NCBI GenBank assembly: GCA_945885475.1 | Contig: CAMCYR010000036.1 | Span: 1-32,825 of the forward strand | DNA: 32,825 bases | Direction: 5' to 3' | Origin: Chitinophaga pinensis | GTDB lineage: Bacteria; Bacteroidota; Bacteroidia; 2-12-FULL-35-15 | Part shown: positions 847 to 8,196 of the stretch, piece by piece | Position numbering within the stretch: position 1 is the first letter of the stretch | How the letters are laid out: each line of letters opens with the position of its first letter | The notes under the pieces: model-generated | The model's database searches: none | Told to the model about the DNA's origin: nothing | Seen by the model: the letters and a program-made list of their open reading frames with translations, nothing else | Program-made: the position numbers and the translations under genes

Positions 847-3800
847 TTATTTTTGATCGTTAGTTTTTGATTGATTTAATAACAATTGAATTTGTTTTTG
901 TTGTACTTCAGATTGTTTTTTTAATTCTTCAATTTGTGCTTGTTGTTCTTGTATTGCTTTCACAAGTACTGGAAATAACCGATCATATTGAATAGATTTA
1001 ACATTCACGTCATCACTTAATTTTTCTTTAGTTAAAGAATTGTATTCCCCGGGAAGTACCGCATCTTTTACCATTTCAGGAATCACTTCTTCAATTTCCT
1101 GTGCAATAAATCCCCATTGCTTTTCTTTTGGAAGATTAATATGTTTATATTTTTCAGTATCAAAATAATATTGATGCGTTTTTATTTTCAATACTGTTTC
1201 TATTGCATTTATATTTAAATCTGAAATATCTCTTTTTAAATTTTTATCCGAAACAGTCCAAGCTGTTCCTGATGTTGAAAACTGCATACCATTTGAGTAA
1301 ATGCCATAATTTACAGACGCACCAGAAGCAGACCCATATACACCAAAATTTGTTCCTCCAGCACCAGAAGCTTGCCCAAAAACACCATAATGTACACCAG
1401 CAGTACCACCTGAATTAGTAATATATGCTCCGAATGAATTACCAGGATGGGACGAAGGAGTTGCACTACTATTAATACCTACATAACTGGCATAAAATTT
1501 ACCTCCGAAACCATACCCGGGTGCATTTTCTGATTTAGCAACAATTCCTACACCATCAACAGTCCCAACATTTGTATTTTCAAAATAGGATGAAATTGCT
1601 CCTGCAGTAGCTTCTGTAACATGCAATTTATATAGAGGAGCAAGACCGGGAGCAGTTCCACCAATACCAACATTTCCACCAACCGTAACAGCTAATTTAG
1701 GTCCGCCATTGTTTGTATAAATAAAGAAAGGGTGATTTGATTGAGTTCCTATGCTGGCAGAAGTCCCAGCATTTATAAAAGTACTCATTACAACGGAACC
1801 ATCCGTTTGATTTAATCCATAATTAGTTGCATTAATATCAATTGGATAATTAGGAGCAGCAGTAATTAAACCACCAACCTTCAACTTATTCGTTATAAGC
1901 ACGTTACCATTATTAAAAAGTCCTGCCCAATTTGTACTCGTTGAACCAGAAGCATCAGCAAAAATACCAATTGCTTGTCCTGATCCTGTAACATTTGCAA
2001 CACCTTCTACCCCTCTCGCTCCACCTGTTGCACTTGTATTTGTTGCTGCAGCTTCAACGCCAACAACGGTGGTTCCAGCAGCACTCGCGTTTGCTTGAGT
2101 ATAAATACCATAATTATTAGCAGTTCCTGAAGCAGATGAAATTGCATAAACAGAAGCATTTATTCCAGCACTACTTGTAGATGTTTGATGTTCGAAATAA
2201 GAAAGAGGTCCAGCCGAAGTTGTATTTTGATACACATGCAATTTACCTGGCCCTGCAGGGGTAGAAGTACCAACACCAATTGTTGTTCCGTTATCAAATA
2301 GCAAAGAAGTAGAAGTAAGACCTGTGCCTGCAGCATTCCATTTAGGGATATAATTTGCGGTTCCGTTACTTGTTAAAGGTGAACCGGCTACAACGGAAAG
2401 TAATCCTGAAGCATTGGCAACAACTGTTCCTCCGGGTGCTAAACTATTTAAAGTTATTTTTCCTGCTATCGGTTCAATAGACATGGCAGTAATGGTTGTA
2501 CCGGGAATTTTTACAATTTTTAATCCTCCATCAGTATCAGATCCTATCCGCCATTCTGTTCCTCCCCCGGTATTTTCAATCCCGATTGCAGATTGCCACA
2601 GAGAAGATCCGGAAACAACTAACCCTGCACCAGGACTTGTTGTGCCGATACCTACACTTGATCCATTATTAAATAAATTACTTGAAGCTGTCCAAACACC
2701 TGCATTATTATATAATGTTTGTCCGTTTAATCCGGCAGGTAATAAGCCTGTAATTGCAGCAGTTCCGGCCGTAGTCAAACGACCAAAAACATCTACTGTA
2801 AAAGTCGGTATTTGAGCCGCACTTCCATATACACCCGGCGTTACACCTGAGCTGGCCATTGAAATAATAGGAGCTGTTCCACCTGAACTAATTATTGGCG
2901 TAGTTGCTGTTACGGATGTTACAGCCGTTCCTGAGGAGATGCTTACCCATGCACTTCCATTGTAATAATAAAACTGACCAACAAGATCATACACTAATAA
3001 TCCTGTTACTGGACTTGCAATAGCAAGTCTTTGTGCTGATGTCATACGTGGAATCAAAATACCTTTACTTGTTGAAACCATCTCTAACAATGCAGAAGCA
3101 ACAGGAGTGTTTGTTCCGATACCTACTCTTCCTAATCCATCAATATTAAAAAAAGATGTCAGAGTTGCTGCAGTTCCATCTGCGCCGCCATTCAAATGAA
3201 AACCTAAGTTGTCAGCTATTACTTCCCAGTCGAAAGCTGCTGCATTCGATCGTTCTAAGCGAAAAGAAGTTGTTGTTGGTTGTGAAAGAGTCAACAGTTG
3301 TAAGGGACTTGTTGAACCTATCCCCACATTTCCTCCGTTATTAAAAATATTACTACTATTAACAACCCAAGATGTTCCGTTCCAATAAGGAGTATTTCCT
3401 GCAGCTGCACCTGTTGTCAAAAAGCCTGTCGCTCCGGTTGCACCAACAGCACCAGCCGTTCCAGCCGTTCCCGTTGCGCCTGTTAATCCTGTTGCTCCGT
3501 TAGCACCGGTTGCACCAGCAGTTCCAGCAGTTCCCATTGCACCTGTTAATCCTGTTGCTCCGTTAGCACCGGTTGCACCAGCAGTTCCCGTTGCACCTGT
3601 TAATCCTGTAGCACCTGTAGCACCTGTTGCACCTGTTGCTCCTGCAGATCCTGCAGTACCCGTTGCACCCGTTAAACCAACAGCACCATCAACACCGGTT
3701 GCACCTGTTAATCCTGTAACACCCGTTGCTCCTGCAGATCCTGCAGTACCCGTTGCACCCGTTAATCCAATAGCACCATCAACACCGGTGGCGCCTGTTA

Positions 3801-4449
3801 ATCCAGTAACACCTGTTGCACCCGTTGCACCCGTTAATCCGGTTACACCTGTTGCGCCTGTTAAACCAATAAGACCATCAACACCTGTTGCGCCAGTAGC
3901 GCCAGTAGCTCCGGTTAATCCAACACCTGTTGCTCCAGTAGCGCCTGTTGCACCATCAAGTCCTGTTGCACCAGTAGCACCAATTAAACCTGCACCGGTC
4001 GGACCAGTTGGTCCCGGAACAGTGGAAACTGGACCAGTAGCACCGACTGGACCATTCGCGGCATAAAAAGCATAGGGAACACTCATCATCTGACTTGCGC
4101 CCATTGATACAAAACCACTCCCATCGTTCACTTCCACTTCCAAATATTTATCACCACTTCCCCAGTTAACAGTCGAAAATGTTCCTGAAACAGGTATTCC
4201 CATTCCAATTTTTGCAGTAAACAAACCGTATACATTTGTAGTGACAGCATGTGTTTCCTGGTAGACTACTGCCCCCGCTGCTGTAAGATCATGAATACTA
4301 AATCTCGCAGTTAAAGAAGTGCTTATCAACGCTGCACCAGCATTATCGCGGGCAACTGCTTGATAATTGATACCTTGAGGTGGTGCTTGCGCAAATAATG
4401 AAGCAACTGCTAATAATAGCGTAAAAAGGAGAATTGAAGATTTTTTCAT
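847..4449 (-). CDS. Collagen-like fibre protein with C-terminal S74 self-cleaving chaperone domain
   Basis: This is a complete 1200-residue secreted protein. It has a signal peptide (about residues 1-20), the [14 protein letters not shown]-terminal domain (21-130), and a collagen-like Gly-X-Y tract (about 132-343). A long beta-rich shaft follows with repeated NVGIGxTSP motifs. The C-terminal domain begins [11 protein letters not shown] and contains [16 protein letters not shown] and a terminal Gln/Lys-rich coiled coil. That end matches the S74 intramolecular chaperone of phage tail fibres and endosialidases. The catalytic Ser/Lys pair spaced five apart is present as S1067 and K1072, so cleavage before S1067 would release about 134 residues after trimerisation. 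No T9SS sorting domain is seen. It is probably a trimeric surface or extracellular fibre. It sits just upstream of its paralogue. I found no clear promoter in the 339 bases upstream. Confidence 0.88.
3413..4055 (-). repeat. Collagen-like low-complexity coding tract
   Basis: The tract encodes roughly 210 residues of GATG/GLTG/GVTG triplets. On the plus strand it reads as monotonous cctgttgcaccagt-like units. Long identical stretches recur within the tract and in the partial gene at 1-120, making this a substrate for slippage and gene conversion. Precise unit borders are arbitrary. Confidence 0.75.
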
Positions 4450-4788: not shown

Positions 4789-6579
4789 TTAATAGGGGAT
4801 TTTTAACCCAATCACAAGAATATCATCTACTTGGTCAAGAGGGCCTCGCCATTCTTCAATAGTTTTGTTCAAAATTTCTTTTTGCTTTTCAATTGGCTCA
4901 TCATGCACTTGCATCAAAAGATCACGGAAGTGATTTGCCATAAATTTTTTACCATTCGGACCGCCAAATTGATCAGCATATCCATCTGAAAAAATATAAA
5001 CCGAATCACCTTTTTGCAACTGAACAGTATGATTAGTGAATTTCTTTTTCTCTTCTCCTAAAAACAATCCTATAGGAAACTTATCGGCTTTTGTTTGAAT
5101 TAATTGCCCCTCTCTTATAAGATATAGAGGATTATAAGCACCCGCATATTCTAATTCTAATTTTTTAAAATCAATCGTACAAAACGAAATATCCATACCA
5201 TCTTTTGCCTGTGAATCCTGATGTCCGTGATGTAACGTTTCACTGACTCCTTCGTTCAATCGGTCTAAAATTTCGGACGGTGACGTACTCTTATTGCTAT
5301 TCACTACATGTTTCAACAAGTTATAACCAACGATCGACATAAAAGCACCCGGAACACCATGCCCAGTGCAGTCGACAGCAGCAAATAGTGATTTACCATT
5401 TTTCTCATCCATCCAATAAAAATCTCCTGAAACAATGTCTTTTGGCTTATATAAAACAAAAGAATTGGGCAAAACGCGCTTCACTAAACTGTCTGGAGGA
5501 AGTATCGCTTCCTGAATACGTTTGGCGTACTTTATACTGTCTGTTACATGCTTGTAGAGTACTTCCAGCTCTTGATTCTGCGTTTCAATTTCTTCTTTTT
5601 GACGTACAACCTGTTCTGTCCGCTCAATAACTTTTGCTTCTAATAGGCGCTCGTTTTCACGCAGATCTTCACGCATTTTCAATAAAGCAGCACCTAAAGT
5701 ATCCTCTTTACTCAAGGCGCGGTAATGGGAATCAAAATTTCCAGAACCAACCTGTTTTGCAAATTCAGTTGTCCTTGCCATTCCATCAACCAGATCGTTC
5801 AATGCAACCGACATTTCACCAATTTCATCATTACGGTCTTTGATATGCTCTGTAGGAAGGACTCCCCTACCCATCATTACTAGAATTTTTTTCAATTGAT
5901 GAATTGGACGGACAATTGTTCTAACAGTAAAAATGGCAATAAGAATTGCTCCAAAAGGCAAGATAAAAAACAACCAGATCACAATCTTTTGAAGAGCTCC
6001 GAACGATTGTAACATCTCATCCGAATTATCAAGCGCATTTTTATTTTGTTTGTCAATAAGTAAACTTAAATTTTCATTGATCACATCATTTTGTGTGTCC
6101 AGTTCTTCGAAGGGTAACTGGGCAATAAATTTTATATTAGGATCATTATACGTATCGAAGGAATTCAATGTTTCCATAACATCTTCATCGTAGCTTTTGA
6201 ACATTTGTTCGATCAATGCCAAAATACCTTCAATACTTTCTTGTTCCTCTTTATTCCAGTTGGCTGAATACGCTTTTATTTTCGCTTTTAAAGTTGGATA
6301 TTCATCTTTTATAAGACCACGTAATGCTTTTTTATCGATCGCATCATCACCTGTTTGGACATAGAACCACTTAGTAATTAAAAATTTAGACCGAATAAGG
6401 AGGTAATTTAATTCTTTAAGAGAGGCTACTGAGGGGTTATAGATCTCGGTTACCTGATCCGTTTTTTTACGACTATCATTGAGGGTAATATTGGTAAGCC
6501 AAAAGGCTACAATTACCAAAAGGATGATTACACCAAAGCCTAATCCTATCTTTCTCCCAATTGTAAATCTTAAATTCAT
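4789..6579 (-). CDS. Membrane HAMP-domain PP2C/SpoIIE-type serine phosphatase
   Basis: The 596-residue sensor phosphatase has a first membrane helix at about 11-30 and a helical periplasmic sensor (31-198, four-helix-bundle type). A second helix at 199-219, a HAMP domain (about 220-270) and a coiled coil (about 300-360) follow. The C-terminal PP2C/SpoIIE domain has the expected metal ligands: D386 in GDFYW, D403 in DCTGHG, D532 in SDGYADQFGG and the DD pair at 585-586 in VDDILVIG. It should dephosphorylate a Ser/Thr-phosphorylated cytoplasmic partner, typically an anti-sigma antagonist, in response to an envelope signal. No such partner is encoded nearby. It is last in a minus-strand operon, 25 bases after the TPR gene and behind the YfiR-like gene, which suggests those periplasmic proteins control it. 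Confidence 0.88.
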   Translation of the reverse strand: MNLRFTIGRKIGLGFGVIILLVIVAFWLTNITLNDSRKKTDQVTEIYNPSVASLKELNYLLIRSKFLITKWFYVQTGDDAIDKKALRGLIKDEYPTLKAKIKAYSANWNKEEQESIEGILALIEQMFKSYDEDVMETLNSFDTYNDPNIKFIAQLPFEELDTQNDVINENLSLLIDKQNKNALDNSDEMLQSFGALQKIVIWLFFILPFGAILIAIFTVRTIVRPIHQLKKILVMMGRGVLPTEHIKDRNDEIGEMSVALNDLVDGMARTTEFAKQVGSGNFDSHYRALSKEDTLGAALLKMREDLRENERLLEAKVIERTEQVVRQKEEIETQNQELEVLYKHVTDSIKYAKRIQEAILPPDSLVKRVLPNSFVLYKPKDIVSGDFYWMDEKNGKSLFAAVDCTGHGVPGAFMSIVGYNLLKHVVNSNKSTSPSEILDRLNEGVSETLHHGHQDSQAKDGMDISFCTIDFKKLELEYAGAYNPLYLIREGQLIQTKADKFPIGLFLGEEKKKFTNHTVQLQKGDSVYIFSDGYADQFGGPNGKKFMANHFRDLLMQVHDEPIEKQKEILNKTIEEWRGPLDQVDDILVIGLKIPY

Positions 6580-6604
6580 AAAGCTATCAGCTATTTATCG
6601 TTTC

Positions 6605-7492
6605 TTACTTTCCAATTTGCTCTAATTTTTGCTTAAATTCATTCGATTTCTCTTTTTCATTTAAACTAAAATAGATACCCGATAAACCCAACAACGTTTC
6701 TTTCTTATTTGGATCGAGAGCATATGCTTTTTCCATAAATGGAAGTGATTGTTTAAATAAATTAATTGAATTATCCTGAACGTCATTCAATGCAACAATA
6801 TCTAAATCGTAATCAGATTGATTTATAAGATTCACCGCTTGATTATAATACAAAATACCCATATTATAATTTGCGTTTATATTGTTCGGATCGAATGACA
6901 ATGCTTTGTTGTAAGATGCTTTTGCATAATTCAGAAAGTCGGTCTTACCTTTTCTGTCAGCTTCATAAATGCGAGTATAAACTGTTGCCATGGCATTAGC
7001 AAAATCAATCTCTTTTTGTTTGAAATTTTCTGCTGAAGGATCAACCAAAAGGTAATATTCACGGAATATGTCAAAATTATTTACCGCAATTTTATAATCG
7101 ATCGTGTCTAAACTTGCAGCTGCATCATTGTATAATGTTGTAGCGAGGTATTTAATATTCTTGATATTTTCAGTTACATTTTCTTGTGTCGTATCAATTG
7201 TAAGTGATTTTTTGAAAGAAATAAGTCCTTCAATTCGAGAAGAAGATTGTTTATTCGATTTCTCACTTTGATTATAAATCGTTTTGTAAATAAAACCACG
7301 CACATACCATGCCTGACCGTCTGACTGGGTTTCAGAGTGTAAAATAGCAACATCAATAGTCGCTTTCGCACTATCTAATTTACCTTGCTGCAAGAACGTA
7401 TACGCAGCAGTCACCCGAGACTGTTGCGCATTTAAAGACACCGCCAAAAAAAGCAGTAATCCAAAAATGATTGTTCTTTTAGTTTTTAACAT
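6605..7492 (-). CDS. Secreted TPR-repeat protein
   Basis: The 295-residue protein has an N-terminal signal peptide (MLKTKRTIIFGLLLFLAVSLNAQ) and is otherwise helical. TPR-like repeats are recognisable, most clearly AKASYNKALSFDPNNINANYNMGILYYNQA in the middle and a last repeat ALDPNKKETLLGLSGIYFSLNEK near the C-terminus. It is probably periplasmic and acts as a protein-protein scaffold. It lies between a YfiR-like gene (8-base gap upstream) and the HAMP-phosphatase gene (25-base gap downstream), so a role linking the two is inferred from position only. Confidence 0.8.
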   Translation of the reverse strand: MLKTKRTIIFGLLLFLAVSLNAQQSRVTAAYTFLQQGKLDSAKATIDVAILHSETQSDGQAWYVRGFIYKTIYNQSEKSNKQSSSRIEGLISFKKSLTIDTTQENVTENIKNIKYLATTLYNDAAASLDTIDYKIAVNNFDIFREYYLLVDPSAENFKQKEIDFANAMATVYTRIYEADRKGKTDFLNYAKASYNKALSFDPNNINANYNMGILYYNQAVNLINQSDYDLDIVALNDVQDNSINLFKQSLPFMEKAYALDPNKKETLLGLSGIYFSLNEKEKSNEFKQKLEQIGK

Positions 7493-7500
7493 TTAACATC

Positions 7501-8031
7501 TTATTTAACTTGAACAGCCATATCAACAAGTGTTGACGCAACCTTCAATTTATACTTTTCAATATTCGATCTGTTCAACTCAATTTTTTGTTTATTTCCA
7601 TCAACAAAAAAGTTAATTCCGGAACCTTTTGTTGCTAGTCCGGATTTATCTGTGACGATCAATGCACTTTTACCTTTTAATTTACCTAATACACCATTAA
7701 GCTGTGAAGAGTTGTCAGAAAGAATGTAAACGATATGACACTTTGCACAATCAGCAGGAGTAAAAACCGATTTAATTTCAAATTTTTGAGTCCCAACAGT
7801 TTTAGAACTTGCCATTTTATTGAGTTCTGTTACAAGGGGAGTATTTGTTCCCAAGACACCAACCACAAAATTCCCTTCTTTATAAGAAGCCGGCCACTCA
7901 ATATACTTGGTGAAATTGTATATATAGATGGTCTTAATCTTTGCATTCGCCTCTTCAGATTGATCAGGAAGAACAACCATCCAAGAGGATAGGATCATAA
8001 CTGAAACAAATATGGAGAGTAATTTCTTCAT
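7501..8031 (-). CDS. YfiR/DUF4154-family periplasmic protein
   Basis: The 176-residue protein starts with a signal peptide ending near LPDQSEEANA. The body has the family's landmarks: IKTIYIYNFTKYIEWPASY followed by FVVGVLG, then ADCAKCHIVYIL (the 'CHI' strand), then a GLATKGSGINFFVDGNKQKIELN segment. The C-terminal helix resembles LKVASTLVDMA. In Pseudomonas, YfiR is a periplasmic repressor of the membrane cyclase YfiN. Here the membrane output encoded in the same operon is a HAMP-phosphatase rather than a GGDEF protein. The two Cys of ADCAKC could form or exchange a disulphide. It is first in the operon, with a candidate -7 box 52-59 bases upstream. Confidence 0.82.
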   Translation of the reverse strand: MKKLLSIFVSVMILSSWMVVLPDQSEEANAKIKTIYIYNFTKYIEWPASYKEGNFVVGVLGTNTPLVTELNKMASSKTVGTQKFEIKSVFTPADCAKCHIVYILSDNSSQLNGVLGKLKGKSALIVTDKSGLATKGSGINFFVDGNKQKIELNRSNIEKYKLKVASTLVDMAVQVK

Positions 8032-8082: not shown

Positions 8083-8113
8083 CAAATATACAATTTTTTC
8101 GCTAAAAATAAAG
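8083..8113 (-). promoter_or_regulatory. Candidate promoter of the yfiR-like operon
   Basis: On the minus strand a perfect Bacteroidota -7 box TATATTTG (8090-8083) lies 52-59 bases upstream of the start codon. At the expected distance (19 bases) the -33 box reads CTTT rather than TTTG, so only half of the signature is strong. Confidence 0.4.
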
Positions 8114-8147: not shown

Positions 8148-8196
8148 CAAAAAAAGTAGCCCTTTGATTTTCAACAATCTAAAAATCAAAGGGCTA
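8148..8196 (-). terminator. Rho-independent terminator of the DUF4139 gene
   Basis: A 15-bp perfect inverted repeat (TAGCCCTTTGATTTT at 8157-8171 against 8182-8196) has a 10-base loop. Read on the minus strand it is followed by CTTTTTTT. It lies 25 bases past the stop of the DUF4139 gene and separates it from the yfiR-like operon. Confidence 0.85.

Follow-up and report, generated by a model that had tools for sequence, protein, structure and literature searches.

We identified a compact gene set in Chitinophaga pinensis which, on balance, we slightly favor to be an envelope-to-cytoplasm signaling module, with a phosphatase that would act on a SiaC-type phosphoprotein. The set occupies positions 4789–8031 on the minus strand of the window, i.e., the whole stretch of 32,825 nucleotides analyzed here, and comprises three genes, for a periplasmic protein with YfiR fold, an exported TPR protein, and a membrane-bound phosphatase, with intergenic gaps of 8 and 25 nt. 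An earlier note on this DNA had described the three genes with their strand, gaps, and domains, all of which were borne out by ORF calls and Pfam profile matches.

The first gene (7501–8031, minus strand) encodes a YfiR/DUF4154-like periplasmic protein of 176 aa. It belongs to the Pfam family PF13689 (DUF4154, YfiR/HmsC-like), scoring 110 bits where 24.9 are required. Its AlphaFold2 model (pLDDT 91) had solved YfiR structures as best matches in a fold search (E 2e-8, TMt up to 0.82), and the top 15 PDB fold matches were YfiR-family chains or complexes, whereas a sequence-based profile search of the PDB with the YfiR-like family returned no match. Orthology to Pseudomonas YfiR was rejected, as the scores for the NCBIfam equivalogs were below cut-off (sequest_YfiR, 16.9 of 85 bits; TOL_0243, 103.5 of 125 bits). 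No further DUF4154 gene was found in the window genome. The earlier note had also considered a redox signal, which is unsupported because the cysteine pair of the protein is not conserved: C95 is present in one of 42 aligned YfiR-like sequences, namely the window's own, and 12 of the 42 contain no cysteine at all. Redox sensing via the CxxC of the YfiR-like protein was therefore rejected.

The second gene (6605–7492, minus strand) encodes the TPR protein of 295 aa, which has a signal-peptide-like N-terminus, is matched by TPR Pfam models at or above cut-off, and represents a conserved family (alignment A2). Elsewhere in the window genome, on contig C3, a protein of 605 aa (L115:4526-6343) shows weak likeness to this family (72 bits), followed by PP2C. 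The third gene (4789–6579, minus strand) encodes the phosphatase of 596 aa, with two membrane segments, a helical periplasmic bundle, a HAMP domain, and a PP2C/SpoIIE domain. Its N-terminal sensor module consists of membrane segment, helical bundle, and membrane segment (5950–6579, minus strand; alignment A4); hydropathy places the membrane segments near residues 5–36 and 189–224, and the region between them is all-helical in the structure model. The HAMP domain (5785–5931, minus strand; PF00672, 33.6 bits, residues 217–265) is followed by the catalytic domain (4798–5397, minus strand; PF07228, 74 bits, residues 395–594), whose metal ligands are intact, with D386, D403, D463, D532, D536, and D585 aligning to aspartates of the SiaA structure 6K4E. 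This PP2C structure was the sole PDB profile match of the phosphatase (E 6e-50) and the best fold match of its PP2C domain, closer than RsbU/SpoIIE. Orthology to Pseudomonas SiaA was nevertheless rejected, since the score for the NCBIfam SiaA equivalog, 230.6 of 700 bits and covering the C-terminal part only, fell short of the cut-off. Two residues of SiaA proposed to contact SiaC, R652 and F612 (PMC7647112), are changed to V584 and K544, respectively. Likeness to SiaA proved weak as a specific mark of the operon phosphatase, as the SiaA model also matches nine out of ten further phosphatases encoded in this genome; the operon phosphatase had the highest score among those compared.

The DUF4139 gene upstream is set apart from the operon by a strong intrinsic terminator (8157–8196, minus strand), formed by an 18-pair stem and a subsequent T-run. 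A candidate −7 promoter element of the Bacteroidota type TAnnTTTG (TATATTTG; 8083–8090, minus strand) is located 59 nt before yfiR, and among 73 related loci, 53 carry the same motif ahead of yfiR, compared to an expected 8.7. Judged by this terminator and the promoter motif, yfiR, the TPR gene, and the phosphatase gene most likely form a single transcription unit.

The earlier note had suggested looking for the same gene order in related genomes and had named its absence as grounds for refutation; the order YfiR-TPR-PP2C indeed recurs, both among congeneric relatives and across further families. A second scan, for which the TPR family served as query, yielded 145 relatives, from which 80 loci were kept; many loci of the first and second scan stem from the same assemblies, so that the two sets are not independent. 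One copy of the gene set, in genome G043, was recovered by a frame search. In 70 of 78 cases, from several Bacteroidia lineages, the TPR gene is immediately preceded by YfiR and immediately followed by the phosphatase, a conservation of order far in excess of chance. The eight exceptions comprise four loci at contig ends, one in which a short called ORF intervenes (L188), one fusion, and two lacking a neighbor (L159 and L197). Many carriers are uncultured Bacteroidia; they include Flavobacteriales and Vicingaceae MAGs as well as the isolate Acidiluteibacter ferrifornacis. In a phylum sample of 296 genomes, adjacent YfiR and TPR genes were found only in the window genome and in G101, by which a phylum-wide system was rejected. 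Because of this rarity, we regard the operon as a clade-level module of certain Bacteroidia.

The coupling of a YfiR-type regulator to a serine/threonine phosphatase, the central proposal of the earlier note, is supported by the conserved order and by gene fusions. YfiR and PP2C are combined in single proteins at two loci, L200 and L201, where a long linker and a stretch resembling a membrane segment separate the two domains. A MAG carrying the operon additionally encodes a TPR-PP2C fusion (L199). Fusions of YfiR to histidine kinases were found in other Bacteroidota (L202, L203, L204, and L205). Moreover, the helical sensor of the phosphatase is also present on hybrid histidine kinases (L060 and L078) and on a GAF/PAS protein (L207); in L060 and L207, a YfiR gene immediately precedes the sensor-bearing gene, and in L078 the two are one gene apart. 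When whole genomes were searched with the sensor domain alone, nearly all strong matches adjoined YfiR, the unlinked ones being those in G049 and G241 and one of two copies in G042. All five genomes of the phylum sample with a strong sensor match contain YfiR, compared to 23 of 296 overall. Fusions and sensor sharing support a coupling of YfiR and phosphatase that would go beyond co-transcription. Adjoining the YfiR-PP2C fusion of L201, we also observed a fusion of YfiR with a class III adenylate/guanylate cyclase (L201:7868-9697).

Malone and colleagues (PMC3375315) proposed YfiR together with a PAS/HAMP partner as a modular core, with histidine kinases, GGDEF/EAL proteins, and MCPs among its outputs; the passages of that paper considered here do not name PP2C as an output. 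By its domain content, the operon extends this modular theme to a PP2C output, a helical sensor, and a TPR partner. Regarding the mechanism, contact of the YfiR-like and TPR proteins with the sensor is inferred, as are the kind of signal, the direction of control (repression or activation), and the substrate; the linker role that the earlier note gave to the TPR protein is putative. The YfiR-like protein would determine which state the helical sensor adopts, and the TPR protein would either help or titrate the YfiR-like protein in the periplasm. The sensor state would be passed via HAMP to a PP2C dimer, which would dephosphorylate the SiaC-type phosphoprotein at a conserved NTSS phosphosite, while a SiaB-type kinase would phosphorylate it; the best candidate for this pair in the window genome is encoded on contig C44. 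It counts against this reading that YfiN is bound via a PAS domain (PMC3375315), in contrast to the helical sensor found here.

Alternatively, the TPR protein or its ligand could be the main regulator of the phosphatase, with the YfiR-like protein sensing or sequestering it and TPR replacing YfiB. This arrangement, which we consider unlikely, would fit the TPR-PP2C fusion of L199, as it lacks both YfiR and the helical sensor, the position of the TPR gene between yfiR and the phosphatase gene, and the Pfam result that a YfiB-like OmpA gene is absent from the three-gene set. However, a YfiR gene is directly followed by the sensor-phosphatase gene in L107, where the TPR gene is missing, and the YfiR-PP2C fusions likewise do without the TPR of the operon family.

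For the favored reading, i.e., a YfiR-gated phosphatase acting on SiaC, the window genome offers a candidate target. It encodes 13 SpoIIE phosphatases, three SiaC proteins, and at least two SiaB-type DUF6272 proteins. The earlier note had stated that the target is not encoded nearby, which holds for the window itself, where none was found. With SiaC and its kinase SiaB, however, a strong candidate is present elsewhere in the genome and beside the operon in others. SiaB, SiaC, YfiR, TPR, and PP2C genes are contiguous on one strand in L160 and L168, and their SiaC and SiaB are 86–87% and 80% identical, respectively, to those of the C44 pair. By these identities, the pairs are orthologous, and the linkage in L160 and L168 probably represents a single evolutionary event. 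A different SiaB-SiaC pair is located approximately 3 kb upstream of the operon in L055 and L172, and SiaC follows the YfiR-PP2C fusion after 10 nt in L200. The NTSS site, which contains T68 of Pseudomonas SiaC (PMC7647112), is kept in the C44 and C8 SiaC proteins. At the family level, SiaC was found in all seven other families with operon genes, but only in seven of 16 families without them (p 0.014). Because of the SiaB/SiaC linkage, the C44 identity, the arrangement in L200, the NTSS site, and the family co-occurrence, we consider SiaC a strong candidate, and the leading one, for the substrate of the operon phosphatase. Against this assignment, SiaB/SiaC are not adjacent to the operon in the window genome, the two proposed SiaC-contact residues are changed, the linkage in L160 and L168 probably counts as one event only, twelve other SpoIIE phosphatases of the genome compete for substrates, and the C44 pair lies near a propeller-type phosphatase of its own. 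In L168, a second, PAS-containing SpoIIE phosphatase (L168:6087-7358) is encoded directly upstream of the contiguous five genes.

If the YfiR-like and TPR proteins gate the phosphatase, its substrate could also be a STAS anti-sigma-factor antagonist, as in the partner switching of RsbU/SpoIIE, instead of SiaC. We rate this as rather improbable: the phosphatase does carry a SpoIIE-family domain, and the window genome encodes two small STAS proteins, but no phosphatase or kinase gene lies close to the STAS genes in the stretches examined, no STAS gene was seen adjoining the operon, whereas SiaB/SiaC genes were, and the structural match to SiaA is closer than that to RsbU/SpoIIE. That YfiR and TPR serve an unrelated envelope function and share no more than a transcript with the phosphatase is very improbable. 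In favor of it, TPR proteins are common in Bacteroidota and the contact with the phosphatase is inferred, but the YfiR-PP2C and TPR-PP2C fusions, the link of the sensor to YfiR across different outputs, and the long-range conservation of the order argue against it.

Concerning the output of the YfiR–SiaC module, GGDEF domains had no match in the window genome or in 57 of 59 relatives. The classic YfiR output is thus absent from the window genome, for which control of a diguanylate cyclase was rejected, and SiaC would have to act on something besides c-di-GMP synthesis. Judging from gene content, YfiR and SiaC are not expected to work via c-di-GMP synthesis in these genomes. Two large ABC-2 transporters with a weakly TerB-like N-terminus are encoded near two SiaC genes of the window genome (L108:4524-9287 and L109:3194-7649), and where GGDEF is absent, such transporters might serve as effectors of SiaC. 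A SpoIIE phosphatase on contig C8 (L109:7746-9899) matches GldM with its N-terminus (55 bits) and GldL weakly (22 bits, below cut-off), both components of the type IX secretion/gliding motor; its gene clusters with those for SiaC, a lipoprotein, and a TerB-ABC transporter. Downstream of the operon, the window encodes a large collagen-like/S74 INYQAVAR surface protein (847–4449, minus strand), a conserved type of neighbor whose membership in the operon is unproven. In many loci, INYQAVAR-type proteins are encoded on the same strand as the phosphatase, at positions +1 to +3 behind it, whereas the motif was found in 0 of 531 ORFs upstream of the operon. They are collagen-like in the window and in L131, and the one in the window has an S74 chaperone domain. 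The gaps between the phosphatase and the next gene, 92–471 nt, suggest a separate promoter for the downstream gene. That the module controls surface proteins is a guess from gene position.

Both YfiR and SiaC have been described in the control of biofilms by c-di-GMP, mainly in Pseudomonas. The operon resembles the YfiBNR (TpbB) system of Pseudomonas aeruginosa by its YfiR-fold periplasmic protein and a membrane partner with periplasmic sensor and HAMP, and a modular exchange of outputs has been described for distant relatives (PMC3375315); however, YfiBNR has a GGDEF output, a PAS sensor, and YfiB, in contrast to PP2C, a helical bundle, and a TPR protein in a genome without GGDEF. With SiaABCD of the same species, it shares a HAMP-PP2C phosphatase with matching catalytic residues and SiaB/SiaC homologues in the genome; SiaB/SiaC form one operon with the phosphatase in L160 and L168, but not in the window. 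It differs from SiaABCD by another periplasmic domain, the YfiR and TPR partners, the lack of SiaD, the changed residues proposed to contact SiaC, and the unlinked SiaB/SiaC of the window genome. YfiR-histidine kinase and YfiR-cyclase systems of Bacteroidota and others likewise have a YfiR input fused or adjacent to a membrane signaling protein, but their output is a kinase or cyclase instead of a phosphatase. In the open-access literature searched, which leaves most subscription journals outside, no paper links YfiR to SpoIIE and TPR, or to phosphatases of Bacteroidetes, and DUF4154 and DUF1987 each appear in a single paper, on Pseudomonas in both cases.

We see the case as evenly balanced for a distinct envelope pathway of Bacteroidia, leading from YfiR, TPR, and the sensor phosphatase to SiaB/SiaC, mostly without c-di-GMP synthesis and with surface proteins as the likely output. 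If true, the YfiR and Sia systems would merge into one circuit, and SiaC would have a function independent of a diguanylate cyclase. Their wiring together in mostly GGDEF-less genomes suggests that YfiR and SiaC may both be more general modules. SiaC would thereby provide a concrete candidate target for the phosphatase, and its role without a diguanylate cyclase would become testable in Bacteroidota.
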